From NCBI RefSeq assembly GCF_001548055.1, contig NZ_AP014724.1:1240001-1304000 (forward strand): a DNA stretch of 64,000 nt. Direction: 5' to 3'. The notes under the pieces were generated by a model, which was given only the letters and a program-made list of their open reading frames with translations, was not told the DNA's origin and did not search any database. Made by a program: the position numbers and the translations under genes. The first letter of the stretch is position 1, and the number at the start of each line of letters is the position of its first letter. Positions 40,747-57,981 of the stretch are shown here, piece after piece. This stretch comes from Sulfurospirillum cavolei (GTDB taxonomy: Bacteria > Campylobacterota > Campylobacteria > Campylobacterales > Sulfurospirillaceae).

Positions 40747-42867
40747 TTAAAATTCACTTTCACGAATAAGAACAGAGAGTACTTTTTTGTAAACTTTCGT
40801 GATCAAGCTTGACGATTCGCCCTCGACTAACAATGTCCCAACACTTCGATTTCGCAACCGTATATTGCTTTCGTTTAAATCAATGATGATTTTATAATAA
40901 GCTTGTTCGGTTTTGAGACGTTTATTGCCGTCTTGCCGCGTAGCGATTTTTCCGCCGAATACGGAGGCTAATTCGGGAAATTCTAAATACGGACTTGATA
41001 CTTTGGCTATCTCGTTTACGCTTGCATGAATATCTTTTCTATCGCCGGAGTGAAAGAAAAACGTACTTTTGGCACTGTTTTTAAGGAACGCCATGTCGTA
41101 TTCGTTGCAAAAAGCGGTAATGCGATGGTCCGTGTCGTCGTATAGCACAAAAATCGGTTTAGTTTTACTGACCCATTGATTTTCTTTGAACGTATCGTAA
41201 AGATAGACTTTCCCGTCGAAATTTGCTCTGACGTCAAATTTTTGTCGGATTTTTTCTAAACCTTCCAATTCGTTTAGGCTTTTGAGTAGGCTCTCTTGCA
41301 AGACAAAACGTTTGTCCAAGCTCTCTTTAAAACCGGCTTGTTTGTCCAGTTCTTGCTTGAGTTGCTCGATTTGCGTCTTCACTTGGGTGATCTTGAACTC
41401 CAGTTCCGATGAACGTATTTTCATCAAAAGATCGCCTTGTTTAACTTCCGCTCCATTCGTAAAGAAGATGCTTTCAATGTAGCCGTCTTCAATCGGATAA
41501 AATTCAAAATAGTGCTTTGATTCGATCACGGCAGGCATCTTGATCGTGCCATGCCACGGAAGAAAAATCGCCGCTAAAAGAAGTAAAAACACGAACAGTG
41601 AACGGCGGTTTTTTCGATTGAACGTAAGTTCGCCTCGTTTCTTCCACCAGACGTTGAACTCTTTGTAAATCGGTAAAAGGATAAACCATGCGACTTCAAC
41701 CGCAAAGAGAATAATACCCAAAGCTTTAAACGCAAAATAGTACACTAATGCGGCGATTCCGGCAAATAAAAAGAAGCGGTATATCCATGTCGCAATCGCA
41801 TAAACGATAAAAAATACTTCGCGCTTTTTCGTCAAAAGTTCGGGTTTTTCTTGCTCTAACCCTAAAATATGATGACGCAAAAACCACTTCGCCATCGCAA
41901 AAGAGCGCGGCTGTAAATTTTGCGTATCGGTTAAGTCTGCAAGGGCGTAGTATCCGTCAAAACGCAAAAAAGGACTGATATTGATGAGCAAAGAGCTGGT
42001 CCAACTGGTTGTTGCAATGATAAATAAAATACTTTTAAAAACACCGATCGGTGCAAACGACCATAAAAACGTCGCAATCAATGCCAAATAAAGCTCGACT
42101 TTAATGCCCGCTAGAACGATTTGCAAACGCTGGTAGTTAGACTTTAACTTCCAAGCACTGGTCGTATCGGTGTATAAAACGGGGAAAAGCACTAAGAACG
42201 CAACGCCCATCGTGGGGACTTTGCACCCAAAACGTTTTGCGCTAAAGGCATGTCCTAATTCGTGAAAGCTTTTAACGAACACCAAAGAGAGAAAATAATA
42301 AACAGCACCCTCTTGCGAGAAAAAATAGAGAAACGTTGAACTAAACGTCGTCCAGTCTCTTAAGATAAAAATGATGCCGATAAAGCCTAGAATTAAAACA
42401 ATGTTTTGCCAGAGCTTAGAGTATAAAAAATCAATGCGATGTAGATTGTCATCCAACCAACGATCGGGTTTTACCAACGGGATTCGAATAAACAGGTAGT
42501 TATGCAAAAGCCATTTAAGCAACGTTTGTCTGGATTGTTTATACATCGCTTTGATGCGATGCAAAGACTTCGCGTCTTCACAAACGATCAAGTTGTTTTG
42601 GCTTAAAAATTCGATAAAGGTCTGCAAGGATTCCGCATCGATCGCGTAGTTTTTCTCTTCTAAGGTTTTTAAAAATTCTGCGGTCGTGATGCCGCTTTGC
42701 CAATGTGAAATCAGCTCAAATGCATCAATACCGATCGTGAAATACTTGTTTTGAATGGGGTCAAACAGTAACCAGCGTTTGGAACCGTCTTCAGCCGAAG
42801 AGGTATCCAAAAGCTTTAAATCGTTTCGTAACGGCGGTAGAAGCGGTTCTTGCGTCTGTGGAAGCAT
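40747..42867 (-). CDS. PqqD-like / M50 metalloprotease / HlyD fusion membrane protein
   Basis: About 706 residues (711 if it starts at ATG 42882); residue numbers here follow the 711-residue form. Residues about 22-100 resemble PqqD/RRE leader-peptide-binding domains (KRWLLFDPIQNKYFTI, then AFELISHWQSG). A membrane core of roughly eight helices contains the zinc site HELGH (H207, E208, H211) and NISPFLRFDGYY with Asp309 as likely third ligand, as in M50 intramembrane proteases. After the last helix (about 429-442) comes a HlyD-like arm with a lipoyl half-motif, a coiled coil and a beta-barrel. It is the last gene of the adhesin operon. The start at 42867 forms a TAATG with the preceding gene. 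It may be a protease, a non-proteolytic receptor or an export component. Confidence 0.8.
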   Translation of the reverse strand: MLPQTQEPLLPPLRNDLKLLDTSSAEDGSKRWLLFDPIQNKYFTIGIDAFELISHWQSGITTAEFLKTLEEKNYAIDAESLQTFIEFLSQNNLIVCEDAKSLHRIKAMYKQSRQTLLKWLLHNYLFIRIPLVKPDRWLDDNLHRIDFLYSKLWQNIVLILGFIGIIFILRDWTTFSSTFLYFFSQEGAVYYFLSLVFVKSFHELGHAFSAKRFGCKVPTMGVAFLVLFPVLYTDTTSAWKLKSNYQRLQIVLAGIKVELYLALIATFLWSFAPIGVFKSILFIIATTSWTSSLLINISPFLRFDGYYALADLTDTQNLQPRSFAMAKWFLRHHILGLEQEKPELLTKKREVFFIVYAIATWIYRFFLFAGIAALVYYFAFKALGIILFAVEVAWFILLPIYKEFNVWWKKRGELTFNRKNRRSLFVFLLLLAAIFLPWHGTIKMPAVIESKHYFEFYPIEDGYIESIFFTNGAEVKQGDLLMKIRSSELEFKITQVKTQIEQLKQELDKQAGFKESLDKRFVLQESLLKSLNELEGLEKIRQKFDVRANFDGKVYLYDTFKENQWVSKTKPIFVLYDDTDHRITAFCNEYDMAFLKNSAKSTFFFHSGDRKDIHASVNEIAKVSSPYLEFPELASVFGGKIATRQDGNKRLKTEQAYYKIIIDLNESNIRLRNRSVGTLLVEGESSSLITKVYKKVLSVLIRESEF

Positions 42868-44213
42868 TACCAGCCGATCCATTGCCTAACGGCGGTGATG
42901 GGTTTTCGAAAAAGGTAAAAAAAGAGCGTTACGTTGTGCGAATAGATTTTTGCCGTACCGCGAAGTCCGATAGAGGGAATGTACCCGTTTTCTTGAATAT
43001 CGTCAAAATCCGCGACGATACGATACGACAAAATATTTTGTTCGGTGAGTTCGGGCTTGTAGGAGATGTATTTGATTTTGGCATTCCACGCGTTAATCGG
43101 ATCGTTGTCAAAAAACGCTTTGACGGAGGCATTTTCTTCAAGGAAAAGAGCATCGTTGACGGGTAACATCATTTTGAGCTCTATTTTACGAGCATCGGCA
43201 ATCAAAAAGATACGCTCACCCGTTGCGACGGGTTTTCCTTTCCAATCATTCGGATTGGTAATAATCGCAACCCCCTCCTCTTTGGCGAAGATAGAGGTTT
43301 TATCCAACTGGTCTTTGGCATGCGCGAGCTCGGCTTCTTTGAGTTTGACATGGTTTTCAAGCTGCGCAATTTGGCTTTTTTGTTTCGGATCGAAAAAACT
43401 GCTTTGTCTGGCGGTAAACAATTCGGCATTGCTCACATCAAGCGTTCGTTTGGCAACCAAATAGTTGTTATTAAAATCGACGTCGTCAAACTTGACGACC
43501 AATTGATCTTTTGTTACCTTTTCGTTGGGAAACACCTTGACCTCTTCAATGACCGCATTAAGAGGCGACGTCACCACGTAAGGATTTTTGGCATCGACTT
43601 CCAGCGGTGCTAAAACAGAGAGCTTTACCGGCATAAACATCAGAACTAGAAGCGTTAATGCCGCTATTTTGACGTATTTATTGCGAAACGAGATATTTTT
43701 AAACGTTTGGAAAAGAGCGCATTTACGCATTGCAAATAAAAAGTAGGCTAATGACGAAGAGAGATGTTGACACAAGGCAACGTCATTTTCGCTCCACGGC
43801 TCTTCTTTAAATAACAGTAACATGTAACGGGTTTGCTTTTGCTCTTTCTCGCAATGAAGCGGTATTGTTAAAAGGTGTGGAGGCGCAAATTCGTGAAAAG
43901 ATTTGGCGTTAATCTCTTTTAAATCGCGTGACGCATCGACGCTAAAAATCTCTTTCGCTTTTGCGTTGTGACGAATATCTTCGGCAATCTCTTCGATCCA
44001 TTGAACGTAAGGTGAAGTTGCGTCCATAATGGCAATATCGGAGATTGCCACAACACGGTATTTTTCTCTTAAATCTGTCGTGAGTAAAACCCCTTGCGTA
44101 TAGGATACGAGGTTTCGCGTTTCGTTGACAACTTGAAAATAGAGCTCTTTTAAGGTTTCACAACTCCTACAGTTATGTTCTAACTGTAGGAGTTTTGCTA
44201 AAGTCGGTTCCAA
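42867..44213 (-). CDS. GAF-like / HlyD-family membrane-fusion protein
   Basis: 448 residues. The N-terminal cytoplasmic region (about 1-165) begins KLLQLEHNCRSCETLKELYFQ and looks like a GAF domain. One membrane helix (about 181-200) and a HlyD-like periplasmic adaptor (lipoyl VTSPLNAVIEEVKVFPNEKV, hairpin 255-305, beta-barrel) follow. A cytoplasmic sensory domain on an adaptor is unusual; it could bind the substrate N-terminus, a nucleotide or another export part. The start is TTG at 44213 with AAGAGAGAGA upstream. A 14-bp hairpin lies inside codons 7-17. Confidence 0.78.
   Translation of the reverse strand: MEPTLAKLLQLEHNCRSCETLKELYFQVVNETRNLVSYTQGVLLTTDLREKYRVVAISDIAIMDATSPYVQWIEEIAEDIRHNAKAKEIFSVDASRDLKEINAKSFHEFAPPHLLTIPLHCEKEQKQTRYMLLLFKEEPWSENDVALCQHLSSSLAYFLFAMRKCALFQTFKNISFRNKYVKIAALTLLVLMFMPVKLSVLAPLEVDAKNPYVVTSPLNAVIEEVKVFPNEKVTKDQLVVKFDDVDFNNNYLVAKRTLDVSNAELFTARQSSFFDPKQKSQIAQLENHVKLKEAELAHAKDQLDKTSIFAKEEGVAIITNPNDWKGKPVATGERIFLIADARKIELKMMLPVNDALFLEENASVKAFFDNDPINAWNAKIKYISYKPELTEQNILSYRIVADFDDIQENGYIPSIGLRGTAKIYSHNVTLFFYLFRKPITAVRQWIGW
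44162..44194 (-). other. Perfect 14-bp-stem hairpin in the 5' end of the GAF/HlyD gene
   Basis: AACTCCTACAGTTA (44162-44175) and TAACTGTAGGAGTT (44181-44194) pair perfectly over 14 bp with a 5-nt loop. It lies 33-65 nt downstream of the adhesin stop codon and 20-52 nt into the coding frame. No U-tract follows. It could attenuate transcription, mark an RNase site or limit ribosome movement, so that the giant protein is made in excess over the membrane proteins (inference). Confidence 0.7.
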
Positions 44214-44226
44214 TCTCTCTCTTTTC

Positions 44227-47200
44227 TTATGCGAGTAGTTTTGTTAAATAAGAGCCGTAATGCTCCAGTCGTTGGGTTTCAAGTGCGATTTGCTCTTTAA
44301 AGCCCACAAAGTTCTTGGCATCGGTTTGGTTTTTGTTTTTCAACTGTTTCAAATCAATGGTAAGATTAAGTACCCTTGTCGTACCGTCCGAGTTGATCGC
44401 TTTGATGCTGACATGTAACGTTTCGAGCTCTTCGAGTAACGTACCGGTAATATTACCCGTTCTTGGATCAAACGACAAGCCTTTCGGTAACGCAGCCCCG
44501 TCTGCTAGGGTGACAACAAAACTTTGCGCAAGATTGGTGTCGACGACTTTGACTTCAATATAGTTGTTGACAAGTTTGATCTCTTCAATGGCAATACCGA
44601 CAATAGAGAACGAGTCACGACTGGATTGATTAAAGACGATTTGCCCGTTGGTTAAGACATTCACGTCGACATTGGCCTGAAGTACGCCACTACCGCCTTG
44701 GACACCTCTTTGTGTCGTCGTATCGCCGGATGAAGCGGAACGCTCGTTTTGAGTGTCTCTCTCTCCGGCACTACCCGATGATGGTGCATCGGTTCCCGCT
44801 CGAGGCGTTTCTTGAGTGCTACTTGTTCCAAAACTACCGCTTCCACCGCTTGAGGCTTCACTGCCAGAAGATGGAGTCGTGCTTAAAAAGCCTCTTCCGA
44901 CCTCCGTCGGCAATCCGCTAGATTGAGCACTAGGTGCATAGTTGATAACACCCAATCCTCCAAGAGAACCTCCCGTCGTTCCTGGATTTCCAAACGGATT
45001 TGTACCGCCAGAAGAGCTTCCCGTAGGGGTGGACGCATCCGCACTACCGCCGCTTGATGGTGCCGGTTTTGCCGTTTCTAGCGGAGCGGGGGCGATGACT
45101 AGCATCGAATAGGTTCGGCTGATCGTTGCGCCGAACGGATCTGTTGCTTTAAGCGTAATCTCAAAAACTCCCGATTGTGAAGCTCTTCCGGAGATGACAC
45201 CCGTATCCGGATCAATCGATAAGCCTATCGGTAAATTCGTTGCTTCAAACGTAAAGACGTTGCTTGCATCGCTATCACTAAAGAGCACGGCAATATCTTT
45301 GCGGTAAACGTCTCCAAAAGGTATTTCGACATCGATATTGTCCGATGCAACCGTCGGTGCATCGTTTGTACCCGTAATCGTGATCGAAAAATTCGCAATC
45401 GTCGTTAAGCCTTCAGCATCCGTAACGGCAATAGGGATAACAATCGTATCGGTTTCGCCTTGTCCGACATAATTATAACTAGAAGAATCAAACGTAAACG
45501 AACCGTCATTATGTAAGATGAAGCCCTCAGGTGCAGTTCCGCTTACGCTAAACGTAATAGAGCCGCTATCGACGTCGCTTGCCGGAAGAACACCTTGGAG
45601 GTGTTCACCTTCAATAACACTCCCGGACTGCGCTTCAAAGACAGGACTATCATTGACTGCATTGACCGTAATAGCGATGGTTTGAGTAGCTTCCAAACGA
45701 TTGCCCTCACCAATATTGCCAAGGTCGTTAATGCTGATGGTTAAACTATCGCTTCCGTTATAATCGCTATTAGGTGTATACGTTAATCCATTGATTGCAT
45801 TTTGTAAATCTTCCAAGCTGCCGCGTATTTTAAGAATAGAGGAATGATTAGAACCTTCCAAAACACTTAGCCCCGTCGTTTGTGACAATTCCAATGTTCC
45901 GTTAGTGACATGAAGTGTCACGTCTAAGAGTTGGGATGCATCTATCACATCCAAATCGGACAGAACAATCGCATGAGTATTGTCAAAAACAAAAGGCGTA
46001 TCTTCGTTTATCGTGACGGTCGTATCGGTGATCGTAATCACCGGTGCATCATTGACCGGAGTCACAAAGAATGCAACTTGAGCGATGTTGCTCACTTCGC
46101 CGTCATTCGACGTAAATTGGTATAAAAACGTTTCATATCCGTACCAGTTTTCATTCGGAATAAAGGTAAATTTCGCGTAATCGGGATGATCTGCTCTATT
46201 TTTACCTTCATTCAACATAATTTTACCGTTGGTTAATTGATAACCGATGACTTTTGCATTGGAATCATAGATATAGGTGCTTGCGTCAAAAGCATGGAAC
46301 GTTCCTGCTGTTGTGATCGTGCCGCTTGCATTCGTGATGTCGGGTGTTCCCGTTCCAAACACAAACGTTCCTCCATTATCGTTAATATCTGTCACGAGAT
46401 TATTGATATTGGCGATAATTGAAGAGGTATTATCTTCGGCTCCTACGATATTGTCGCTGTAAATATTGGGGATCGCCGGCAAAACCATCACCAATTTTTC
46501 CGAAACATTCGTACCATTTAAAGCATCTCTTGCCGTTATTTTCAAATAATCGGCACCCGGAGTGATATAGTCGTTTCCATATCCAGCAGCGTATGTTACA
46601 CCGTTAGAAGCGGCTAACGTAGCATTGATTTGATCGATCGTTCCGCTGAGTGTTACAACGCGCGAGCCGTTTCCGCTGATCTGTGAAGCACTAAGACCGT
46701 TGGTGATCGAGTCGTTGATCGTGATGTGACCGTAGCGGGTTGTCTCAATCGTGACACTGAGCATCGTATCGTCTAAATCGGAAACCCTTAAAATAGAGCC
46801 GATCGCAAGCGTACCGTCGTCATTTTGACCGATGATTTTTTCAACGATCAGCGTTGTCGTATTTAAATCTATCGACGGTAAGTCATTGATCGATTGAAGG
46901 TTCACACTTGCCGTTTTGACGCTATAACGTGCCGCCGTCTCACCGCCGTTTCCGCCGTCGTTGACTTTAATCTCAACCGTTCTAGCCGCATCATTGAAAT
47001 TATCGGACGCATTGCTAAACGTGATCGCTCTTGCCAAGGCTTGTACATGTGAAGAGTAAGCATTTTCATTCAAATGTACGCGTAATTCTTTACCGTTTTC
47101 ACCGTTTAAAACAGAGTCGATGGTGCCGATAATAGTATTACCGTATTTTACATGTAAGCCTTCAAACGAAATGCCGCCAAAGGATGCAATCGCCAAAGTA

Positions 47201-50200
47201 TCGAGCGATTCTTTATGTGTCGTCACGGCAAAGGAAATATACCCGCCATCATAACTCGTGCCTTCCAAGTCCGTCACCGTTATATCAGAATCGACTTGTA
47301 CAGGTGATCCGTTTTCGACAAATGTTTTGGGATGTAATGTTCCACCTAAAAGCGGAGCATCATTAACCGCATCTATGGCAATGACCAATTGCTTAGTGTC
47401 GGTAGAACCGTCGTTATCACTAAGCGTCACGGTAAAGGCTTCTGAAGTATTAGCCCTAAGAGCATTGATGACATCAGCATTTGGGGTATACGTATAAGCA
47501 CCCGTAACCGTATTGAGTGTGAGTGTACCGTATAAACCTACTTTCGTCACTGTTGAGTTTAGTAATACGCCTCCATCAATTCCGTATGTAAATACCGTAT
47601 TGTGATCAATGTCGGTTGCACTTAAAGAAGAAGATGTTGCGTTGAAAACGTCGTTTGCATCCGTATCGGTATAGTAAATCGTAGCAGGTGTATTTAATAT
47701 GACATTATCATTCGTGCCGACGATATGAACCGTAATGGTTTTATTCACGCTTGCATTACCGGAATCTTTTACGCTAATCGTATAGGTCAATGTTAAGGTC
47801 TCGCCTGCCGGTAAAGCGTTAAAATAGTTGCTACCGGAATTAAACGACCAATTGACGTCAGAATCGTGCGTCGCAACGCTTAACATGTTAAGTAAAGCGT
47901 TCGTGTTTAGCGTCAATCCTTCCGTTGCTCCCGATGCGACGACACCGACTTTACTGACTGAAAAACTCGTATCCATCGTATCAATATCTTCAATACTTAA
48001 CGTACCGCTTGAGCTCAATGTCGTATTGGTTTCATTGACGGTTGACACATCACTATCACCCGCATCAACAACAACGGTAGGTGTGTCATTCACACCGTCA
48101 ATGGCTATTGAAACGGTTGTCGTTGCCGTTGCGCCTTGAGAGTCCGTTGCCGTTAGTGTATAAAGAAGTGTCACCGTCTGACCTCTGCCTAAGAAGTTAA
48201 ACGTGTGTTCCGTTCCTGAATTAAAACTCCACGAGACCGTTCCTGTTGTTGAATCGTTATCAATAACGGGATTGGAGTTGATATGGAGCATATTTTTGAT
48301 AATCTCTTCCGTATAACCTGAAGGTAAGGTTAACCCGCTGGGAAGCGTGACCTGTACGGAACTGACCGCAACATTAACCTCATCGGTTAGATCAATATCC
48401 GTAATCGTATAATCATCGGTTAAAACAAGCGACGAACTGTTTTCTTGTAGGTTGGTCGATGCCGCATGCTCTAAACTGGAAGTGATATTAGAAAGTTCTG
48501 ATACGGCTCCGGCCGCATAATACCAATCAAACATGACCGTTTGTGAGGCATTGACATTGTTTAAGTTCGTAAACATCGCATATCCGCCGTCATCATACGA
48601 TTGATTGTAGACAGAATTTAAAGGATCAATTCCTGGAGCGTACTGATTGGAGGTGGTCCAACCGTATCCGGGGGCAATGACGGTATTGACATTGGTATTA
48701 GTCGAGTAAAAAAGAACGGCTGTCGCGTTGGCACCTGTTCCCGTATAAATTTTAATCGCTTTAGCTTGCTCTGAAGCATTTGAGATCATCGTAAATTCAC
48801 CATTGACGATATTGCCTTTTTGTTTGGCGGGACTATCGCTACCTGCGACAAAATCGTCGCGTGTTCCGACCCAAAACCTCAAGTTTTCCGTCGATGTAGT
48901 TCCTAGATTGGTAATATACGTGTTTGCTTTGATATATTTAGCACCCGATTCCAAGGTATAGACGTTCGTCACTTTCAAATGAGCCGTTCCGACCGTAATC
49001 TCACCGCTCCAAACAATCGTACCTGTTCCTGTGGTAGTATTGAAATGGGAATTATCAACCGTCGTATTGGTAAAAGTCGGAGTAAGATTAACCGTTCCTT
49101 CTAAGTTCCAGTCCGTATCCGTCTTAGCACTGCCGGAATTATAATCTGCGGCAATTGCCATGTTTAATTGATAACTAGAGAACGTTAATTTATACCAAGT
49201 ACCGTCTTTATAATACCACGGTTGTTCCAGCATACCTGTGCTTGCATTAACAGAATCAACCGTTCCGCTTCCGAATCTTAGTAACCCGTTATTAAATACT
49301 TCCGTTCCCGCGTTTGGACTTGTCGCTCCGGCAGCAGGAGGTGTTACAACACCTGTTCCTCCGCTTGTAATCGTTCCAAATACCGGAGCATCGTTTGTTC
49401 CCGTGATCGTAAACGTAATCCTTGTACTTTGTGTAGCACTTGCCGTGTCGGTTGCGATTACATCATAACTAAACGTAATCGTCTCTCCTTCGGCAAGAAA
49501 ATTTAAATCGACATTATTAGCAGTATAGCTCCATGTCGTCGTACCGGAAGAAGCATTGGTCACACTTGTGTGAAATCCTGCACTCAATGCCGAAGAAAGT
49601 GTTGAATTGAGCGTACCTCCGCTCCATACAATATCGTTGTTATAACTATACGTCACATTAACATTACTATCGACATCGCTAAAGGTTACCGTTCCGCTTT
49701 GTGTCAAATTCTGATTGTCGATGCCGGTCGTTTCCGTAAAGCCTGAAGGGGTTGAAACGGAAATCGTCGGCGCATCGTTGACACCCGTTACATGTAACGT
49801 CGAAGTATCAACCGTACTCTCTAAATTTCCATCGTTAATTTTCCACGAAACGGTTCGCGTCGCTTGCGTTAGACTTAAGGTTTCACTGGTGGAATGATAC
49901 GTAACGCTTCGTAATGCACTTTGCCATTGGGCAAGCGTTGCCGTCGCACCTGAAGATGTTAAAGTTAAAACACCGGTTGAGCCATTGTAAAGTGCCGTGA
50001 TATTGCCCATCGTGGAGCCGTCATTCGTAAAACCTAAAATATCACCGCTTAAAAAACCGGAACTAATGCTGACTTGAGCACTTGCTAAAGTCGTATTGTC
50101 TATATCGTTTAGCGTTAACGAAGGCGAGAGCGCGATAGGCGAACCGTTTTCCGAATAATTTGACGTCTGACTGGTTTCTAACGTAGGTGCATCGTTAACG

Positions 50201-52818
50201 GATAATACTTTAACGGTTAATTGAGCAGCACTTAACGTTCCCCCTGCTCCGCCGTATTCGACAATGTATCCGGCAATTGCGCTTGTATTATTGGCTGCAA
50301 AATCATTCCATTTTCCGGCATTGGCTCCGGAATAGTAAAAGTGTGCCACGTCTTCTCCGCCGCGTGAAGCATCGGAATTATTCGGTTCACCGCTATCCCA
50401 GTTGGCATATTGGCTGTTATACGCTGAGCCGTAATTGGACGTCGAATTGGTTCCGGCACTCGTATCGCCTGTCCAAAATTGTGTTCCGGCTTCCGGACCT
50501 GTGACCCACTTCCAAATCCCTTCGCTAGCGGCATCGCTAGCACCGATCCAACCGTTTCCGCCCGCCATCGAAGTGATGAGCGCATTTTCGTTCGCGGATG
50601 TGATGGTGACCAAGTATCCATTTAATCCATATAAAGTACGAGCTTCCGCCGCGGTTTTAGCATCGGTCCAAGAAATACCCGATGCGCTGACAAATTCGTA
50701 GTAATGTCCATTGAGCGTATTGAAGAATTTACCCGTTTGGTTGATTCTATAAGGTTGCTCGCCGCTTCCTTGGTTGTCGTTAACCGTAATGGTTAAAGGA
50801 TCGTCGCCGAACCAATTGGAATCGGCTTGATAGCGAAGCGTAGCAAGAGTGCTATTAAGGTTTGCAGTACTACCCGTAATTTCCAACGTATGCGTGCCTG
50901 TACCGCTAACCGTTACACCGCTGGAACTGCCTAAACTTAAATTACCGTGATTGGACGATATGGTTACTTTAACATCGCTTCCGGCATCATTATCGCTAAC
51001 GCTGATCCCGGAAATCGTAATGGACGTATCTTCATTCACAGAAAGCGTCTCTCTACCTGAAATATAAGGTAAATCATTTGTTGAGCTAACGCTAATCGTA
51101 CTAGAAGAACTGCCTACGTTACCGCTTGAATCAACAGCCGTTACGGTAAATGTCCGATTCGCGGTTGAAGGATCGTCGGAAGTATTGGAAAACGAAACCA
51201 GTTTCGAAATTGACGTTACGACTGCATCATTCACTTTCGTTCCGTAAACTCTTACGTTATCGATGTAAAGCTGTCCGCCTGCCGCTTGCCCTCCCGATGC
51301 GTCGTATGTGCCGTTAACAAAAACAAATCTATACGTACCGGATGTTGAAATAGTGGTTGCTTTCGTTGCCCATGCAGTGTTGGACGCACCCGTCGCATCT
51401 AAAACTTCAATTTGCGCCCCTGTATTAACATTGACGATATATCCGAAAGCATCAAAATCATCACCTCCGGCATAGGCTCTCCAGTCAAAATAGATGACAT
51501 CACCCGAGCTTGCTTCAAAAGCGGAGCTGTATACGGCAGGTCCGTGAACCACATCGTAGCCGTTGAGTGTCGTCATACTACTGGTAAGTTTTAAAGCATA
51601 GTTACCGTCTGTCGCATTTCCGGCTTCGGAAACAATGGTTGTCGAATAAGAACCGCTTGGTATGTCATTGTCGTTTCCGCCGGAGTTTGCATTGTTCGAA
51701 TAATCGCTTGTATCTTGCGATGTCCATCCGGCAATAACCGTAGAACCTAAATCGATCATTTGATTCATTGCCGTCCATCCGGTGATTGTTCCCGTCTCAA
51801 AACTTGCATTTGTAAAGCTACTGGCAAAATTAATTCGTAATTTTTGTCCGTTAACTCCGTTATAGGTGGAATCTATCGAACCGATAATATCTTTTCCGGA
51901 GCCGTTCCCCAAGTACACATTGGAACCATCAAGAGAAATAGCTCCGTTCGCGGTGGCGTTGCTTGCACTATTGAGTACAAGTTGATCCGAGGTTGTAGCA
52001 TTTGTAAAGCTATACTCGATATATTGCCCCGCATAGCTTGTACCGTTCGTAATAGAAATATTTGAGGCAGGATTTACGCTTGCACCGTTTTCATAAAATG
52101 TGACATTTTGTAAACCGGAAATTGAAGGTGTTCCCATATCTCCTTGATAAGACATGATATTAAAAGACTCCGTTTCAACCACACCGCTTTTAATTTCTAA
52201 ATCCCAATCTCCGCCGACGCCGGTCGTATCGTTTGAAGCGGCAATATCGGCATCGGTCGAAGCGGCGACGGCATTGATAAAGGCTTGTCCTTCTCCGTTG
52301 GCGGCAACGTCGCATCCGTAAAGCAAGACGTCGCCGTTTTCGGACATAGCGTTTTTAATCGTTTGCATTAACGCGTCGTAATGTGTTAAGGTATTTTGAT
52401 TTAAAACATCGTTTCCGACCGTAATTTCACCGGTGCTACCGTGAGAGAGAACGTGAAGAGCGTCAATCTCGGTTTCATGCTTAAGAATCGTTTGAATCTC
52501 GTCTAAGGAACTGACCAAATAAATTTCAACGTTATCGCCGATCCCTTTGACCAGTGTTTCATAATCTTTGACGCTGGTGTCGACAAAAGCAACTTCTTTG
52601 CGTGTATTGGATTCACTGCTTTGCGTTGCTTGTACTTTGTGAGCATTATTTTCGGCATTGTCGTTCGTTACATCGCTGTGTTGAACGGTCGTATCGCTTG
52701 TTTGTGTTGAAAAACTGCTCTTATCAAGGACGTCAACTGCCGTACCGACTGCGGCTCCATCAAAGAGCATTCTTTGTTCTAACGCGCTAATAACCGGTTT
52801 TTTTCTAGTATTTTTCAT
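44227..52818 (-). CDS. Giant DUF4347/cadherin-like surface adhesin with C-type lectin domain
   Basis: 2863 residues. The N-terminus lacks a Sec signal but has ALEQRMLFDGAA at residues 12-23, close to the LEPR-XLL motif of giant exported proteins. DUF4347 (about 74-222) contains DALHVLSHGSTGEI and DVLLYGCDVAANGEG. A jelly-roll-like region follows (about 232-530), then cadherin-like/NED-type repeats, a C-type lectin domain (about 690-855, SWTDAKTAAEARTL, WDSGEPNN), a non-repeat insert (about 1157-1446) and more repeats (NDAPV-type linkers). A Ser/Gly-rich linker (about 2570-2715) precedes the last domain, ending YGSYLTKLLA. No RTX nonapeptides are seen. Probable surface adhesin exported by the flanking genes. 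Shine-Dalgarno AAGGACGGG precedes the ATG. Confidence 0.9.
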   Translation of the reverse strand: MKNTRKKPVISALEQRMLFDGAAVGTAVDVLDKSSFSTQTSDTTVQHSDVTNDNAENNAHKVQATQSSESNTRKEVAFVDTSVKDYETLVKGIGDNVEIYLVSSLDEIQTILKHETEIDALHVLSHGSTGEITVGNDVLNQNTLTHYDALMQTIKNAMSENGDVLLYGCDVAANGEGQAFINAVAASTDADIAASNDTTGVGGDWDLEIKSGVVETESFNIMSYQGDMGTPSISGLQNVTFYENGASVNPASNISITNGTSYAGQYIEYSFTNATTSDQLVLNSASNATANGAISLDGSNVYLGNGSGKDIIGSIDSTYNGVNGQKLRINFASSFTNASFETGTITGWTAMNQMIDLGSTVIAGWTSQDTSDYSNNANSGGNDNDIPSGSYSTTIVSEAGNATDGNYALKLTSSMTTLNGYDVVHGPAVYSSAFEASSGDVIYFDWRAYAGGDDFDAFGYIVNVNTGAQIEVLDATGASNTAWATKATTISTSGTYRFVFVNGTYDASGGQAAGGQLYIDNVRVYGTKVNDAVVTSISKLVSFSNTSDDPSTANRTFTVTAVDSSGNVGSSSSTISVSSTNDLPYISGRETLSVNEDTSITISGISVSDNDAGSDVKVTISSNHGNLSLGSSSGVTVSGTGTHTLEITGSTANLNSTLATLRYQADSNWFGDDPLTITVNDNQGSGEQPYRINQTGKFFNTLNGHYYEFVSASGISWTDAKTAAEARTLYGLNGYLVTITSANENALITSMAGGNGWIGASDAASEGIWKWVTGPEAGTQFWTGDTSAGTNSTSNYGSAYNSQYANWDSGEPNNSDASRGGEDVAHFYYSGANAGKWNDFAANNTSAIAGYIVEYGGAGGTLSAAQLTVKVLSVNDAPTLETSQTSNYSENGSPIALSPSLTLNDIDNTTLASAQVSISSGFLSGDILGFTNDGSTMGNITALYNGSTGVLTLTSSGATATLAQWQSALRSVTYHSTSETLSLTQATRTVSWKINDGNLESTVDTSTLHVTGVNDAPTISVSTPSGFTETTGIDNQNLTQSGTVTFSDVDSNVNVTYSYNNDIVWSGGTLNSTLSSALSAGFHTSVTNASSGTTTWSYTANNVDLNFLAEGETITFSYDVIATDTASATQSTRITFTITGTNDAPVFGTITSGGTGVVTPPAAGATSPNAGTEVFNNGLLRFGSGTVDSVNASTGMLEQPWYYKDGTWYKLTFSSYQLNMAIAADYNSGSAKTDTDWNLEGTVNLTPTFTNTTVDNSHFNTTTGTGTIVWSGEITVGTAHLKVTNVYTLESGAKYIKANTYITNLGTTSTENLRFWVGTRDDFVAGSDSPAKQKGNIVNGEFTMISNASEQAKAIKIYTGTGANATAVLFYSTNTNVNTVIAPGYGWTTSNQYAPGIDPLNSVYNQSYDDGGYAMFTNLNNVNASQTVMFDWYYAAGAVSELSNITSSLEHAASTNLQENSSSLVLTDDYTITDIDLTDEVNVAVSSVQVTLPSGLTLPSGYTEEIIKNMLHINSNPVIDNDSTTGTVSWSFNSGTEHTFNFLGRGQTVTLLYTLTATDSQGATATTTVSIAIDGVNDTPTVVVDAGDSDVSTVNETNTTLSSSGTLSIEDIDTMDTSFSVSKVGVVASGATEGLTLNTNALLNMLSVATHDSDVNWSFNSGSNYFNALPAGETLTLTYTISVKDSGNASVNKTITVHIVGTNDNVILNTPATIYYTDTDANDVFNATSSSLSATDIDHNTVFTYGIDGGVLLNSTVTKVGLYGTLTLNTVTGAYTYTPNADVINALRANTSEAFTVTLSDNDGSTDTKQLVIAIDAVNDAPLLGGTLHPKTFVENGSPVQVDSDITVTDLEGTSYDGGYISFAVTTHKESLDTLAIASFGGISFEGLHVKYGNTIIGTIDSVLNGENGKELRVHLNENAYSSHVQALARAITFSNASDNFNDAARTVEIKVNDGGNGGETAARYSVKTASVNLQSINDLPSIDLNTTTLIVEKIIGQNDDGTLAIGSILRVSDLDDTMLSVTIETTRYGHITINDSITNGLSASQISGNGSRVVTLSGTIDQINATLAASNGVTYAAGYGNDYITPGADYLKITARDALNGTNVSEKLVMVLPAIPNIYSDNIVGAEDNTSSIIANINNLVTDINDNGGTFVFGTGTPDITNASGTITTAGTFHAFDASTYIYDSNAKVIGYQLTNGKIMLNEGKNRADHPDYAKFTFIPNENWYGYETFLYQFTSNDGEVSNIAQVAFFVTPVNDAPVITITDTTVTINEDTPFVFDNTHAIVLSDLDVIDASQLLDVTLHVTNGTLELSQTTGLSVLEGSNHSSILKIRGSLEDLQNAINGLTYTPNSDYNGSDSLTISINDLGNIGEGNRLEATQTIAITVNAVNDSPVFEAQSGSVIEGEHLQGVLPASDVDSGSITFSVSGTAPEGFILHNDGSFTFDSSSYNYVGQGETDTIVIPIAVTDAEGLTTIANFSITITGTNDAPTVASDNIDVEIPFGDVYRKDIAVLFSDSDASNVFTFEATNLPIGLSIDPDTGVISGRASQSGVFEITLKATDPFGATISRTYSMLVIAPAPLETAKPAPSSGGSADASTPTGSSSGGTNPFGNPGTTGGSLGGLGVINYAPSAQSSGLPTEVGRGFLSTTPSSGSEASSGGSGSFGTSSTQETPRAGTDAPSSGSAGERDTQNERSASSGDTTTQRGVQGGSGVLQANVDVNVLTNGQIVFNQSSRDSFSIVGIAIEEIKLVNNYIEVKVVDTNLAQSFVVTLADGAALPKGLSFDPRTGNITGTLLEELETLHVSIKAINSDGTTRVLNLTIDLKQLKNKNQTDAKNFVGFKEQIALETQRLEHYGSYLTKLLA

Positions 52819-52835
52819 GGTGCCCGTCCTTGATA

Positions 52836-53558
52836 TTAATGGGTATTTTGAGGGAAATGGGCCGTAGCACTCATTCCCGGAATAATAGTTTCAAAAGGCT
52901 TGATCAACTTTGCCCGTATCGTAATCGATTGGCTTGTCGGATCTACTACCGAATCGATCTGTACGATTTGCGCTTTCAGCGTTGTTTTTGTCTCATCGAC
53001 ATTGAGTTCAAATTCCATCCCTCTTTTCAGCCATGCAAGCCACGAAGAGGGAACGACGACTCTGGCTTCAAGATTATCGAGTCCGACGATTTCGAAGAGC
53101 TCGTCTTGGGGTTTAATACTTTGGTATTTCGATACTTTCTTAGAGGCGATTTTGCCGTCAAAAGGGGCATTGATCTCGCATCGCGAGACGTTAATGGCGG
53201 CAATATCGCTTTCTGCTTTTTGTTTGTTGTAGTTTTCATTTGAGATTTGAATCTCAAACGTCCCCACGGAACCGAAAGAGTCAAGTTTTTTGTTTTTTTC
53301 CAGTTCAAGCTTGGCGATCTCTTTTTCAACGTCTATTTTGCGTTTTTGCGCTCGATAAACCGCACAATCGATTTTCAAAAGGGATTCGCCTTTTTTAAAA
53401 GAATCACCCTCATGCTTGCTAAGCTCAATAATTTCCCCTGCAATTTCACTGGATAAAACGGTGCGATCAAGCGATACGATAATGGCACGTGCCGTAGGAT
53501 TTTCTGCGGCACAGAGCATCGATGCTAACGCTAATACGATACTTAAAACTCTTTTCAT
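52836..53558 (-). CDS. Periplasmic adaptor (membrane-fusion protein), short form
   Basis: A 240-residue HlyD/RND-adaptor-like protein with a cleavable signal peptide (MKRVLSIVLALASMLCAA). A lipoyl first half (SSEIAGEIIELSKHEGDSFKKGESLLKI, cut here to its core) is followed by a short helical hairpin, the second lipoyl half ISKNAPFDGKI-like INAPFDGKIASKKVSKYQ, and a beta-barrel ending PGMSATAHFP. It has no membrane helix. The start is ATG 53558 (AAGGTGAG upstream), since the GTG three codons earlier overlaps the Shine-Dalgarno. It lies between tolC-like and adhesin genes and should bridge the outer-membrane channel to inner-membrane parts. Confidence 0.85.
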   Translation of the reverse strand: MKRVLSIVLALASMLCAAENPTARAIIVSLDRTVLSSEIAGEIIELSKHEGDSFKKGESLLKIDCAVYRAQKRKIDVEKEIAKLELEKNKKLDSFGSVGTFEIQISNENYNKQKAESDIAAINVSRCEINAPFDGKIASKKVSKYQSIKPQDELFEIVGLDNLEARVVVPSSWLAWLKRGMEFELNVDETKTTLKAQIVQIDSVVDPTSQSITIRAKLIKPFETIIPGMSATAHFPQNTH

Positions 53559-53572
53559 TGCGCTCACCTTTT

Positions 53573-55465
53573 TTATTTAGCACTAACCCTGTTTTTTTCA
53601 ACGAGCCATGGATTTTCAGACACGATCCATGATGGAGAAACTCCCGCTTCTTCGGCAATTTTAGGAAGGCTATCACCCTCTTTGACGCTATACGGTTTTG
53701 CGTTGACCGTTAGCTTGTCACCGGGGTAAAGAAGCACTTTTGCCGTTCTGAAATTCATCGTTGAAAAGCGATTTTCTTCTTTTTGGAGTGTTGCTTTTTG
53801 CGGCACTTCAACAGCTTGTGTTTCTTTCACTTCCGGCATAACGACAGGTGTTACATGTAACGTTTCCTCTTTCGTTTCGGCGACGGGTTTAGCTTCAACG
53901 ATAGGAGCTTGCGTCTCTTGAACTTCCGGCACGACGACAGGCGTTACATGTAGCTTTTCTTCCGGAACTTCCGCGACGGGTTTTACTTCCTCAACGGGGG
54001 CTTGTACCGCTTGAATCGGTTCCATGTTTGGCGTTTCAAGAGCTTTTTCATCTACACCCAAAGAGGCAAAGATTTTTCCGTAACCGTTTTGAACATTCGC
54101 ATACGCCGCCGAGTAACGCAACGTCGCCAAGATATTATTGAGTTTCTCTTTGATGAGAATCAAACGACTGTTAACATTAACGGAATTTTCAACTTCCGTG
54201 AGACGGTAAATATCATCGGCAACCGTGAGATACTCTTTGGCTAAGAGGTACTCTTTTTTTGCTTGGTTGAAGTTAACGATGGAGAGATGCACTTGAGAGA
54301 GTACCGCCATCGATAGAGCAAGTTTTTGCTCTTTTGCCACTTCGATTTGAGTTTTTGCCAACTTATTATACGAGCTTGCTTTAAAGACGTTCAAAAGATT
54401 CCATGAGACATTCGCACCGTAAGAGTACCAGTCGTTGTTGAGCAAATAATCGCTATTGTCGTAAGATAAGGAAGCACTAAGATTAACCCCCGGTAACATT
54501 TTAAGCTTAGCGGCGGTTAACTCTTTTTCCGAGATGCGCTCTTGGTATCTGCTCTCTGTCAACTCAGGACGATTTTCCAAAGCGATCTCTTCCATTTGAT
54601 CAAGACTGAGATGCATTTGAGGAATCTCATAGTTTTTTTCAACTTTATCGGCTAACTCAAACTCGGTTCCCGGTTTAAGCCCCATGAGTTCCGAAAGCTC
54701 GACTTTGGCTGAAATAAGACCGCTTTCTAAAGTATGAAGCGATCGTAAAATGTCGAGCAATTCGCGTTGATACGCTAAAGCTTCCATCGGCGTTTTGGAA
54801 ACGCGTTGGTCTTGAACCGCTTTAGAATCGTTAAGGGCTTGTTTCACTTCGACCATCATCGGTTGAATGCGTTTGAGCAGATCTTGTGCGGAGACGGCTT
54901 GATAGTAAGCTCTTCTGATCTCTTGGGTCAACGTATGCTCGATCTTTTTCTCTTTTTCTTTGGCGATTAAAAATTTATCGGCTTGTTGCTCCGCTCTAAC
55001 GTAAGACAAACCGAAATCAAGAATATTCCAACTAAAGGTAACGTCGGTGGTCGATCTCTCTTTTTCTTGGGAGATGGAGTACGTATTGTTCAACGGTTGG
55101 GGTTTTCCGTTGGTAAAAGAAGCACTTTGGCTCGCCGCATAGTTATTGCGTTCGGAATATCCCGCCGCCGCGGTCAAACTCGGCAACATGTCATAATAAA
55201 CTAAATCAAGTTGTTGTTCGGAGAGAGCCGATTCTAAAACTTTGACACGCTTTTGAAGATTGTGGTTGATACCGCGATAAATTGCCTCATCCAGCGTAAT
55301 GGGTTTTGTGACCGGCAAAGCCGCTTCGCTGAGCGTCGATAAATCCTTCTTAACTTGCGCTTTGACGTCTTCTTGAAGCATCGGTTGCGGTGCAACGGAA
55401 CAACCCGTAATGACAACCGAAGCGGCTATGGACAGAACAACGTTTTTAGACACTTGTTTTAGCAT
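53573..55465 (-). CDS. TolC-family outer-membrane lipoprotein with C-terminal LysM
   Basis: 630 residues. The lipobox VVITGC puts the lipidated Cys at residue 22. The OEP/TolC body (about 40-470) has two repeated helical halves (for example EIRRAYYQAVSAQDLLKRIQ). A Pro/Val/Glu-rich region (about 483-545) carries two 31-residue repeats. The C-terminus (about 590-630) is a LysM-like domain, YSVKEGDSLPKIAEEAGVS, expected to bind peptidoglycan. Start ATG 55465 has AAAGGTG upstream; the GTG at 55474 is part of that site. First gene of the adhesin operon. Channel for export; the LysM tail is unusual for TolC proteins. Confidence 0.85.
   Translation of the reverse strand: MLKQVSKNVVLSIAASVVITGCSVAPQPMLQEDVKAQVKKDLSTLSEAALPVTKPITLDEAIYRGINHNLQKRVKVLESALSEQQLDLVYYDMLPSLTAAAGYSERNNYAASQSASFTNGKPQPLNNTYSISQEKERSTTDVTFSWNILDFGLSYVRAEQQADKFLIAKEKEKKIEHTLTQEIRRAYYQAVSAQDLLKRIQPMMVEVKQALNDSKAVQDQRVSKTPMEALAYQRELLDILRSLHTLESGLISAKVELSELMGLKPGTEFELADKVEKNYEIPQMHLSLDQMEEIALENRPELTESRYQERISEKELTAAKLKMLPGVNLSASLSYDNSDYLLNNDWYSYGANVSWNLLNVFKASSYNKLAKTQIEVAKEQKLALSMAVLSQVHLSIVNFNQAKKEYLLAKEYLTVADDIYRLTEVENSVNVNSRLILIKEKLNNILATLRYSAAYANVQNGYGKIFASLGVDEKALETPNMEPIQAVQAPVEEVKPVAEVPEEKLHVTPVVVPEVQETQAPIVEAKPVAETKEETLHVTPVVMPEVKETQAVEVPQKATLQKEENRFSTMNFRTAKVLLYPGDKLTVNAKPYSVKEGDSLPKIAEEAGVSPSWIVSENPWLVEKNRVSAK
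53829..54014 (-). repeat. Tandem 93-bp repeat in the TolC-like gene
   Basis: Two consecutive imperfect copies (53829-53921 and 53922-54014) encode LHVTPVVMPEVKETQ and LHVTPVVVPEVQETQ, followed by VEAKPVAETKEE and VEEVKPVAEVPEE. Each copy is 31 residues. This linker between the channel and the LysM domain may vary in length between strains. Confidence 0.7.
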
Positions 55466-55735
55466 GATGAACACCTTTTGTAATTTTATTTTTAGTCTTT
55501 AATAGCGGAAGTCTCAAAATCGAAAGAGAAAGCCTGATATCGTGAAAGCGACGATTTAACATACGCCAATCCTCATATTCATACGTTTTACTCTAAGCTT
55601 CATTGTACTTTTTTCATATCGTAGCTTTATCGCACGTTAAAATTTTTTTTGCGATGTGTTTGCGATTTGATTATAATACAGTTACGAAAATCGATCATAC
55701 GCATCAAGATTTAAAAAAAGACCGGTAAAACACCG
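55466..55735. promoter_or_regulatory. Divergent promoter region: adhesin operon / two-component genes
   Basis: A 270-nt divergent region. TATAAT at 55672-55677 (plus), in TTGATTATAATAC, is a good -10 box for the response regulator. On the minus strand TACAAT (55602-55607) is a weaker candidate for the tolC-like operon, giving a leader of about 130 nt. I found no clear direct-repeat operator for the OmpR-type regulator. Confidence 0.45.
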
Positions 55736-56410
55736 ATGAAACGATTAGCGGATAAAAATTTACTACTTTTAGAAGACAACGTCGAATTTATCGATAACGC
55801 CGTCTCTTTATTTGAGATGTTCGTCGCGCGTGTTTATGTCGCACATACGATTAAAGAGGCTTATGAACTTTTTGAGAAAGAACGCATCGATATTATTATT
55901 TCGGATATTCACCTGAAAAATGAAAACGGGCTCGATTTTATCAAAGAGTTGCGAAAAAGTAACGACAGTGTTCCTGTTTTAATTCTGAGCGGTCATAAAG
56001 ACGAAGAATTCCTCTTCAAAGCGATGACCTTAAATCTCAGCGGCTATCTTTTAAAACCGATTAATTTTAAAATGTTGGTTGACGGACTTCAAGAATGCAT
56101 TAAAAAAATGGAAGCAAGTTCGCAGACGATCGTTACGCTTAAAGACGGTTTTTGTTACGATAAAGCACTGAAAAACGTTACGAAAAATAACGTTACGTTT
56201 GAGCTGAATAAAAAAGAGATTCTCTTTTTTGAAATGCTCTGCCAGCATAAAAATACGATTTTGACGCGCGACATGTTTTTAGCTTACGTTTATGAGTACG
56301 AACCGATGAGTGAAAGTGCGCTTAATAATTTTATTATGCGCATACGAAGACGTTTCGGAAAAACGTTTTTACATACGATTCCGGACGTCGGCTACAAGTT
56401 GATCGTATGA
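55736..56410 (+). CDS. OmpR-family response regulator
   Basis: 224 residues. The receiver domain (about 8-120) has the acidic pair in LLLEDN, phospho-acceptor Asp in IIISDIHLKNENG, and Lys in YLLKPI. The winged-helix DNA-binding domain (about 135-224) ends RRRFGKTFLHTIPDVGYKLIV. The sensor kinase gene overlaps it (stop TGA inside ATGATG). Divergent from the adhesin operon and convergent toward ttrA, so either could be its target. Confidence 0.92.
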   Translation: MKRLADKNLLLLEDNVEFIDNAVSLFEMFVARVYVAHTIKEAYELFEKERIDIIISDIHLKNENGLDFIKELRKSNDSVPVLILSGHKDEEFLFKAMTLNLSGYLLKPINFKMLVDGLQECIKKMEASSQTIVTLKDGFCYDKALKNVTKNNVTFELNKKEILFFEMLCQHKNTILTRDMFLAYVYEYEPMSESALNNFIMRIRRRFGKTFLHTIPDVGYKLIV

Positions 56411-57981
56411 TGAAATCGCTTTGGGCATTGTGCCTTTGGGGCTTTATAGCGACTGTTTTTGCCTCTTCCGTTGCGTTAAGCCCAGAGCAAGAAGCATACC
56501 TCAAAGAGAAAAAAGTCGTGACGATGTGCGTCGATCCCGATTGGGCTCCTTTTGAAACGATTAATGCCGACAAAGAGCACGAAGGCATTGCCGCCGATCT
56601 GATACGATTGATTGCTTCTAAACTCGATCTAACGTTACGATTGGTTCCGACGAAAACATGGGAAGAGACGGTTTTAAAATCCAAACGCCAAGAGTGCGAC
56701 CTCTTAAGTTTGGTCAATCAAACTCCAAAGCGCGAAGAATGGCTCGTATTTACCGAACCGATCATTAAAGATCCCAACGTACTGGTCGCTCGCAGTGATT
56801 ATCCGCCGATCGACGACATACGCTCCTTGCGTAATACCAGCATTGCCTTACTGAAAGAAACATTCGTTATCGAGCGTTTTCAAAACGATTTTCCTAACCT
56901 TAAAATTCTTCCCGTCGATACGGAAGAAGAAGCGTTTTGGATGGTGGAAAACAAAAAAGCGGATTTGACGCTTCGCTCGCTGATGGTTACGGCATATACG
57001 ATCAAAAAAGAGAGTATTTTCAACCTCAAAGTCGTCGCACAACCCAAAGATTACGTCAACATTTTGCGTATCGGCGTTCGCAAAGACGAACCGATTTTGC
57101 GGGATATTTTAAATCGAGGCATTCAAGCAATCACGCCAAGCGAAAAAGAACACATTGTTAATAAGCATATTTACATCAAAGTCGAATCCAACGAGCGTAA
57201 CCACCACTTATTGATTTACGGTATCTTAACGCTTTTATTGATTTCGTCTTTGATCTTAATTTGGAATTACCAACTGCGTAAACGTGTTGCGCAAGAGGTC
57301 AAAAAAAACCTTGAACACTCTCAAATGCTTTTTCAACAATCCAAACAAGCCGCCCTTGGTGCGCTTATTGCGACGATTTCGCATCAATGGCGGGAAAGCC
57401 TGACTAAAATCAGTTATGCGAATTTGACGTTTCGCGCCCATATCTTGCAACATAAAAAGATTCCGGACGAATTGCTGGATAAAAACACGCGGGAAATCGA
57501 GCAAACCTTGGATTTTATGTCCGAGACGATGCAGAACTTTTTAGAGTATTACAAACCTTCTACCAACGTTTACGAATTTGAGGTCGAAGACTCGATTCGA
57601 GCCGTGATTCGCATTTTGGATACCCGTATTAAAAACCTGAACGTCGCTATTGCATTTCATCAGACGTCCAATACCCATTTTATCGGTATTCGTAACGAGT
57701 GGATGCAAGTGTGGATGAACCTTTTATCCAATATGCTCAATATGGCACAAAAACGTGCTATCAAGTATCCTTATATCGAAATTACGATTAGCGAAAATGC
57801 GATTTCGTTTCACGATAATTGCGGCGGAATAGAACCTGAAATATTGGAAAAGTTAAATAAAGGAAGCTATAAAAACGGTTTAGGGATTAACATGTCAAGG
57901 GAAATCGTGGAAAAATACGGCAAAAGTCTTTTCATGCATAACCTTGACCAAGGGGCTCAATTTATGATCGTTTCGCCTTAA
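56407..57981 (+). CDS. Sensor histidine kinase with periplasmic solute-binding-type domain
   Basis: 524 residues. Signal sequence (about 1-19), then an SBP_bac_3-type domain (about 30-255) resembling amino-acid-binding proteins: VVTMCVDPDWAPFETIN and ECDLLSLVNQTPKREEWLVFT. One membrane helix (about 262-285) is followed by an H-box, ATISHQWRESLTKISYA, and an ATPase domain with N-box NLLSNMLNMAQKRA, G1 DNCGGIEPEIL and G2 GLGINMSREIVEKYG. The catalytic domain is compact. It may sense an amino acid or organic acid. Overlaps the regulator gene by four bases. Confidence 0.9.
   Translation: MMKSLWALCLWGFIATVFASSVALSPEQEAYLKEKKVVTMCVDPDWAPFETINADKEHEGIAADLIRLIASKLDLTLRLVPTKTWEETVLKSKRQECDLLSLVNQTPKREEWLVFTEPIIKDPNVLVARSDYPPIDDIRSLRNTSIALLKETFVIERFQNDFPNLKILPVDTEEEAFWMVENKKADLTLRSLMVTAYTIKKESIFNLKVVAQPKDYVNILRIGVRKDEPILRDILNRGIQAITPSEKEHIVNKHIYIKVESNERNHHLLIYGILTLLLISSLILIWNYQLRKRVAQEVKKNLEHSQMLFQQSKQAALGALIATISHQWRESLTKISYANLTFRAHILQHKKIPDELLDKNTREIEQTLDFMSETMQNFLEYYKPSTNVYEFEVEDSIRAVIRILDTRIKNLNVAIAFHQTSNTHFIGIRNEWMQVWMNLLSNMLNMAQKRAIKYPYIEITISENAISFHDNCGGIEPEILEKLNKGSYKNGLGINMSREIVEKYGKSLFMHNLDQGAQFMIVSP

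Follow-up and report, generated by a model that had tools for sequence, protein, structure and literature searches.

RRE/PqqD domains bind leader peptides, and M50 enzymes cleave near membranes. In the daptides, an RRE stands N-terminal to an intramembrane site-2 protease (S2P), and the partner peptides carry a conserved leader motif (PMC10036551). M50 enzymes take off leaders or scaffolds in other RiPPs, according to a review (PMC10885120). A conserved locus of SecA_DEAD, M50, GAF-HlyD and HlyD genes was described by Kamneva, Poudel and Ward in 2015, who proposed a role in secretion, suggested the M50 protein as the pore and called the biological role completely unknown (PMC4452313). LEPR, PqqD and DUF4347 were not found in the main text of that paper, and a substrate, a tag and an RRE are absent there. 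Our search of the open-access literature, which left aside preprints and most subscription papers, found no work joining PqqD, HlyD and M50.

Here, we investigated a 64,000-nucleotide stretch of the Sulfurospirillum cavolei genome (NZ_AP014724.1, positions 1,240,001 to 1,304,000), referred to as the window, in which a locus of related composition encodes, and may export, a single giant adhesin. We describe its M50 fusion protein, the N-terminal tag of the adhesin and the inheritance of the two across genomes, and then weigh what the operon may do.

The operon and its fusion protein

The locus is a compact row of five genes on the minus strand, to which all coordinates below refer. The first gene encodes a TolC-family outer-membrane channel (53573..55474; Pfam OEP, E 2.6e-38) with a lipoprotein-like N-terminus and a weak C-terminal LysM match (E 0.0036); a TolC-family gene heads the operon in six Campylobacterota relatives as well. 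It is followed by a small periplasmic HlyD/RND-type adaptor (52836..53567; TIGR01730, 112 bits, above cut-off), which by hydropathy begins with a hydrophobic, Sec-like signal, and by the 2863-aa adhesin (44227..52818), which carries an N-terminal tag, a DUF4347 domain, cadherin-like/VCBS repeats and a C-type lectin-like insert. The GAF-type HlyD protein (42867..44213; HlyD_D23, E 6.2e-9) has, judging by hydropathy, a cytoplasmic-like N-terminal domain, one transmembrane helix at about residues 183-201 and an HlyD arm. Pfam GAF gave no match in it, and it is equated with the GAF/HlyD protein of PMC4452313 on the basis of its position and its homology to longer GAF-HlyD proteins in sister loci. 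The M50 protein comes last.

On a tree of M50 cores, the window's branch is related to the SecA2 branch of Kamneva et al. The 82 proteins of the window's type (type A) form one group, with a support of 0.77 after midpoint rooting, while the other group holds the SecA2-linked proteins and that of genome G358. Clustering of the genes neighbouring type-A loci returned only the adhesin, TolC, HlyD, GAF-HlyD and M50-HlyD families as widely common, apart from generic ABC and two-component genes. No modification enzymes common to these loci, as a daptide-like RiPP cluster would have, were found in this survey, outside which short precursor ORFs (<110 aa) fall; the shared module consists of the adhesin and export genes. 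Directly upstream of the window's operon we also observed a response regulator and a periplasmic-sensor histidine kinase (55736-57981), and similar genes flank the operon in loci L013 and L021. The gene order is not fixed: in one Pseudomonas locus (L202:705-10387), the gene directly downstream of an M50 copy initially read as an orphan encodes a tagged adhesin. At some loci, for example L036 and G745, the available sequence shows no adhesin next to the machine. The window's M50 protein (operon 40747-55474) is 68-70% identical to M50 proteins from another family of the same order, and only about 32-34% identical to that of the sole other carrier genome in its own genus; this pattern of identities suggests that the operon was horizontally acquired.

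The fusion gene lies on the minus strand; on the plus strand, 40747-42867 is interrupted by many stop codons. An earlier reading of this DNA, the preliminary description, began the protein at 42867. A start at 42882 (MDRLVM...) is preferred: relatives conserve MDRLVM or MDWLVM/MERLVM, and this start overlaps the end of the upstream gene. The resulting open frame (40747..42882) encodes an RRE-M50-HlyD fusion protein of 711 aa, delineated with Pfam, an AlphaFold model, Foldseek and an alignment of homologues. The residue numbering already given for H207, E208 and H211 fits this form.

In the AlphaFold model of the whole protein (mean pLDDT 76.9), an N-terminus of beta-beta-beta-alpha-alpha-alpha order is followed by a membrane core of helices and an HlyD arm. 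Modelled alone with 77 aligned homologues, the N-terminal domain (about residues 17-105; 42568..42834) reached a pLDDT of 90.6 with the same order of elements, and its predicted three-stranded sheet and three helices are those of the winged RRE fold. When this model was compared with 350,542 PDB chains, the seven best matches were all RREs, most of them leader-bound, including TbiB1 (5v1u, 5v1v), CteB (5why) and another lasso B1 protein (6jx3). Their E values are modest (0.013-0.098) and their probabilities 0.94-1.00, falling to 0.18 at rank eight. Pfam PqqD had no match in the window's M50 protein or elsewhere in the genome, though it matched 10/77 homologues (best E 2.8e-4), and a profile of the domain found no PDB sequence match. 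The PqqD/RRE-like region proposed earlier thus does not appear by sequence in the window protein and does appear by structure; an RRE (PqqD-like) fold is supported by the domain model.

The membrane core (about residues 155-441; 41560..42420) was delimited from the Peptidase_M50 match, the model and hydropathy, and has about seven membrane helices. The Pfam match covers residues 196-301 (E 2.4e-9, above cut-off). The HELGH zinc/catalytic motif (residues 207-211; 42250..42264) and the second metal-site motif NISPFLRFDG (residues 301-310; 41953..41982) are present where they had been reported, giving the HExxH and NxxPxxxxD of an M50/site-2 protease within membrane helices. Loss of HExxH in most homologues was among the results that would have told against the preliminary description. 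H207, E208 and H211 are invariant in 89/89 homologues, and HExxH is kept in 80/80 scanned loci and in 20/20 SecA2-type proteins, so that no widespread loss was seen. N301 and D309 are likewise invariant (89/89), a conservation that is partly built in, since the scan that fetched most homologues selected on the NISPFLRFDG (NxxP..D) stretch; HExxH was outside the scan patterns, and its 80/80 is not built in. By its motifs and Pfam match, the core is a predicted M50 (S2P-type) protease. The NCBIfam model daptide_HExxH (NF041824) matches residues 43-398 with an E of 9.9e-41 and a score of 140, below its cut-off of 300, and NF058609 matches the protein weakly.

The remainder of the protein (about residues 446-711; 40747..41547) is a HlyD/MacA-like periplasmic adaptor arm. 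Foldseek matched it to MacA (3fpp, E 3.4e-11) as well as to ZneB and MexA; in the whole-protein search, the HlyD arm alone was matched, among the matches listed. The HlyD-like arm of the preliminary description thus holds, with HlyD_3 at E 1.1e-7 and MacA/MexA adaptors as the top structural hits of the complete model. Provided that the arm is periplasmic, the approximately seven membrane helices of the model and of the hydropathy profile would place the RRE domain in the cytosol.

An adhesin tag that travels with the machine

The core of the tag, ALEQRMLFDGAA, was found at adhesin residues 12-23 (52750..52785), as first reported, within a conserved segment of about residues 10-27. It had been called LEPR-XLL-like; a conserved N-terminal tag is indeed present, but the score against NF012209 is 11.9 bits, below the cut-off of 17. 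The consensus reads LE[PQS]R-x-[ML]-F-D-G-A-A-[VA]-A-T-A, and L-E-[PQS]-R-x-[ML]-F-D-[GA]-A stands on nearly every intact adhesin N-terminus adjoining a type-A M50. Across 54 unique aligned tags, the conserved positions extend from about -3 to +14 (ALEPRIMFDGAAVATA), after which conservation falls away. In the fetched loci, the tag sits at adhesin N-termini. The adhesin bodies, 202,761 aa in all, contain it 0 times, and of roughly 1,250 further intact ORFs one has it, which is a fragment of an adhesin. It is found 3 to >100 residues from the adhesin start, in genomes from several phyla, and is kept in adhesins with differing or missing DUF4347 and repeat domains. Within the Sulfurospirillum cavolei genome, tag profile A3 matched the window adhesin alone (E 9.6e-14), while a DNA-pattern search for further tags gave the adhesin and chance-like matches only. 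Most exceptions to the tag rule had a cause: broken gene pieces (L053), an assembly gap (L059), a wrong start (L178), a contig end (G743) and a frameshift that left the tag on the N-terminal piece (L097). No such cause emerged for L061, L142 and G745.

The adhesin had been said to bear no other signal. We found neither a Sec-type hydrophobic segment (best 19-residue mean hydropathy 0.79) nor RTX nonapeptide repeats in it, and no anchor or C-terminal secretion signal was recognised. Its DUF4347 domain (residues 76-217; 52168..52593; Pfam E 1.2e-42) begins beyond the tag. Five tagged adhesins have no DUF4347 match (L025, L074, L082, L085 and L086), whereas in three Campylobacterota genomes that have no such machine the DUF4347 proteins are untagged. 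The persistence of tag and M50 without the domain argues against DUF4347 as the reader of the tag.

The co-occurrence of tag and machine was evaluated in two taxa. The tag profile has 28 columns and was trained on leaders from four of the eight positive Campylobacterota genomes and from the Pseudomonadales genome G436; the other four positives and all 389 negatives contributed no sequence to it. Among 397 Campylobacterota genomes, the profile matched exactly the 8 with a type-A M50, once each (Fisher 7e-17). The M50 protein was found in 10 of these genomes and DUF4347 in 12, with both in 8 (Fisher 1.5e-12). In 200 Pseudomonadales genomes, the tag was present in 20/22 type-A genomes and in 0/178 others, a group that includes 25 genomes whose only M50 proteins are more distant relatives (Fisher 1.4e-25). 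The cut-offs were E < 1e-80 for a type-A M50, a border chosen in the gap between 4e-86 and 3e-70 after the list was known, and E < 1e-4 for the tag. Of the two misses, one (G743) has an adhesin truncated by the contig end, and the other is G745. Several genomes with two machines were seen, and these usually have two tags. The absence of co-occurrence, which would have told against the preliminary description, was not seen; co-occurrence is near-perfect in two unrelated taxa. These patterns in gene content support a tag that follows the M50 machine rather than the DUF4347 domain, and they lend indirect support to a leader-binding RRE, although such co-inheritance would also result from a tag that binds some other component of the machine.

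The sister branch carries a different tag, LE[PSN]R-x-L-[LMF]-S-[AG]-D, with the close variants IEPRILHSAD and LSPRILFSAD, and its machine often comes with a second SecA. In genome G309 the two machines coexist, each accompanied by its own tag, and RRE positions 22, 37, 61 and 92 differ between the branches. A separate tag for each M50 clade is consistent with tag specificity, yet it is not strong proof, because types A and B diverged essentially once on the M50 tree, which does not supply many independent tests. A strict rule by which a second SecA always accompanies an LLSAD tag was rejected, as G358 (L031) combines an LLSAD-like tag and a sister-clade M50 with one SecA. In two SecA2-type loci (L027:443-2002 and L029:10007-12133), we also observed a shared extra lipoprotein-like gene, with an SG.V.DGPIKNA stretch, upstream of the TolC gene; it is absent from the window operon.

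Probable export of the adhesin and rival readings

We consider it fairly probable that the operon encodes machinery devoted to exporting a single giant adhesin, in which the RRE would capture the tag, the M50 protease would cut, and the adaptors and channel would export the product. By analogy with RRE domains that hold RiPP leaders, the cytosolic RRE of the M50 protein would capture the adhesin tag, LExRxxFDGAAVATA, and hand it to the membrane-embedded zinc protease, which would cut at the point where the alanine-rich part of the tag ends, or shortly beyond it. The chain would cross the periplasm and the outer membrane by way of the TolC-like channel and of the adaptor arms provided by the M50 protein, the GAF-type protein and the small HlyD. 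RRE-tag binding, cleavage and passage through or beside the M50 core are what we infer from the features above. A point against cleavage of the tag is that S2P enzymes normally cut membrane-spanning helices, and the tag is not such a helix (best 15-residue hydropathy 1.45). Overall, what the preliminary description observed is confirmed, and its interpretation is partly supported, well so for fold, motif and co-inheritance.

The operon has no ABC transporter, and no exporter is common to the neighbours of type-A loci. A second SecA was considered as the motor and rejected: it is absent from the operon and the genome, whose one SecA lies far from the window, and 0/80 scanned loci have a second SecA adjoining the M50 gene. 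Among 40 other type-A genomes, clear extra SecA genes were found in five, each beside a second, different M50 copy. The SecA2-free branch therefore poses the question of how a giant chain is exported without a dedicated ATPase, for which the housekeeping SecA, the proton-motive force and folding outside the cell are candidate drivers.

Other readings of the same features were weighed. The protease could act late rather than early, with the RRE keeping the adhesin N-terminus cytosolic and the remainder exposed outside through the TolC-like channel, until M50 cuts the tether under GAF-type control and the adhesin is shed, a LapA/LapG-like logic with different parts. A tether would suit an N-terminal tag on an adhesin without RTX repeats or a recognised anchor, the intact protease motifs, and the conservation with the M50 protein of a GAF-type HlyD that has a cytoplasmic-like domain and one transmembrane helix. 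Export with the C-terminus first would need a secretion signal, however, and none was recognised at that end of the adhesin. We regard the tether reading as unlikely. That the role of the M50 protein is confined to recognising or conducting the adhesin, and that DUF4347 does any trimming of the adhesin N-terminus, is quite unlikely, even though Kamneva et al. proposed M50 as a pore (PMC4452313). By motif, DUF4347 looks like a caspase-like clan-CD cysteine peptidase domain, a fold on which its weak matches to caspase chains and to Peptidase_C80 agree, and it may cut its own adhesin. Its Gly-Cys is kept in 55/56 domains and its His-Gly in 45/56, and the cysteine is the only one of the protein as fetched in 36/56 adhesins; in the window these residues are H126 and C169, the latter the sole Cys among 2863 residues. 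The His is lost in 11/56 domains, though, adhesins lacking a DUF4347 match still have tag and machine, and invariant M50 catalytic residues would be needless for a mere pore.

The tag might be no export signal at all, only a signature of the adhesin lineage linked to the M50 gene by a shared operon. One operon with the patchy distribution of horizontally moved units would produce such a linkage, but the tag persists despite domain change, at 3 to >100 residues from the start and in several phyla, and it is never found in adhesin bodies or on the DUF4347 proteins outside these loci, which makes a bare signature very improbable. Hardly credible is export by a classical ABC-type type 1 secretion system of the genome, with the operon serving another purpose. 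The genome does have two LssB/LapB-like ABC exporters, yet both adjoin their own RTX/retention-module substrates, and RTX repeats are lacking in the window adhesin, which travels together with this operon; an unlinked route was rejected accordingly. Beside an intact LapB-like exporter, the LapA-like retention-module adhesin of the genome seems to be split into three overlapping frames (L189:808-8238; G000:C1 about 1811807-1819237). We also observed, in two Pseudomonas genomes (L155 and L156), a second M50 copy that lies <20 kb from a LapA-type retention-module adhesin and its ABC exporter.

Relation to described systems

The proposed export machine would provide a likely function and a substrate for a locus that is widespread and that, in 2015, was still described as having a completely unknown role; it also offers a possible explanation of the LEPR-type N-terminal tags of giant repetitive proteins as sorting signals. 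Leader recognition, known from small peptide natural products, would be extended to proteins of thousands of residues. The evidence points to a little-studied mode of adhesin recognition and probable trimming during export, without the usual ABC transporter, in several phyla. A broader proposal, which we put forward tentatively and do not favour as strongly, is that these loci form a separate Gram-negative secretion system, in which an RRE-read N-terminal tag sorts giant adhesins, which pass through a channel with an intramembrane metalloprotease as one of its parts and are cut en route, with no ABC transporter; one branch would use a second SecA and the other would lack a dedicated ATPase, and each would read a tag of its own.

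Classical type 1 secretion (HlyBD-TolC, LapBC) shares HlyD-like adaptors and a TolC-family channel with the window module, which has neither an ABC ATPase nor RTX repeats. The LEPR-XLL domain (NF012209, LEPR-8K) is likewise a short N-terminal tag on large proteins, and the SecA2-type LEPRxLLSAD resembles it, whereas the window tag has FDGAA instead of LLSAD and stays at 11.9 bits against the cut-off of 17. The SecA_DEAD locus of Kamneva et al. also has M50-HlyD, GAF-HlyD and HlyD together, sometimes with an OEP channel, and no ABC transporter; it is defined by a second SecA, which is absent from the window genome and from beside M50 in 80/80 scanned loci. The epipeptide protease EpeP/YydH and the pearlin proteases TglG/TmoG are membrane M50 enzymes that process peptides, EpeP possibly also exporting them, but their substrates are short, and an HlyD arm is absent from their description in the excerpted text of the review (PMC10885120). 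The daptide protease has the same arrangement of an N-terminal RRE followed by a site-2 protease; there the substrates are short peptides, while here the protein is joined to an HlyD arm, has a TolC neighbour and is matched with a 2863-aa adhesin.
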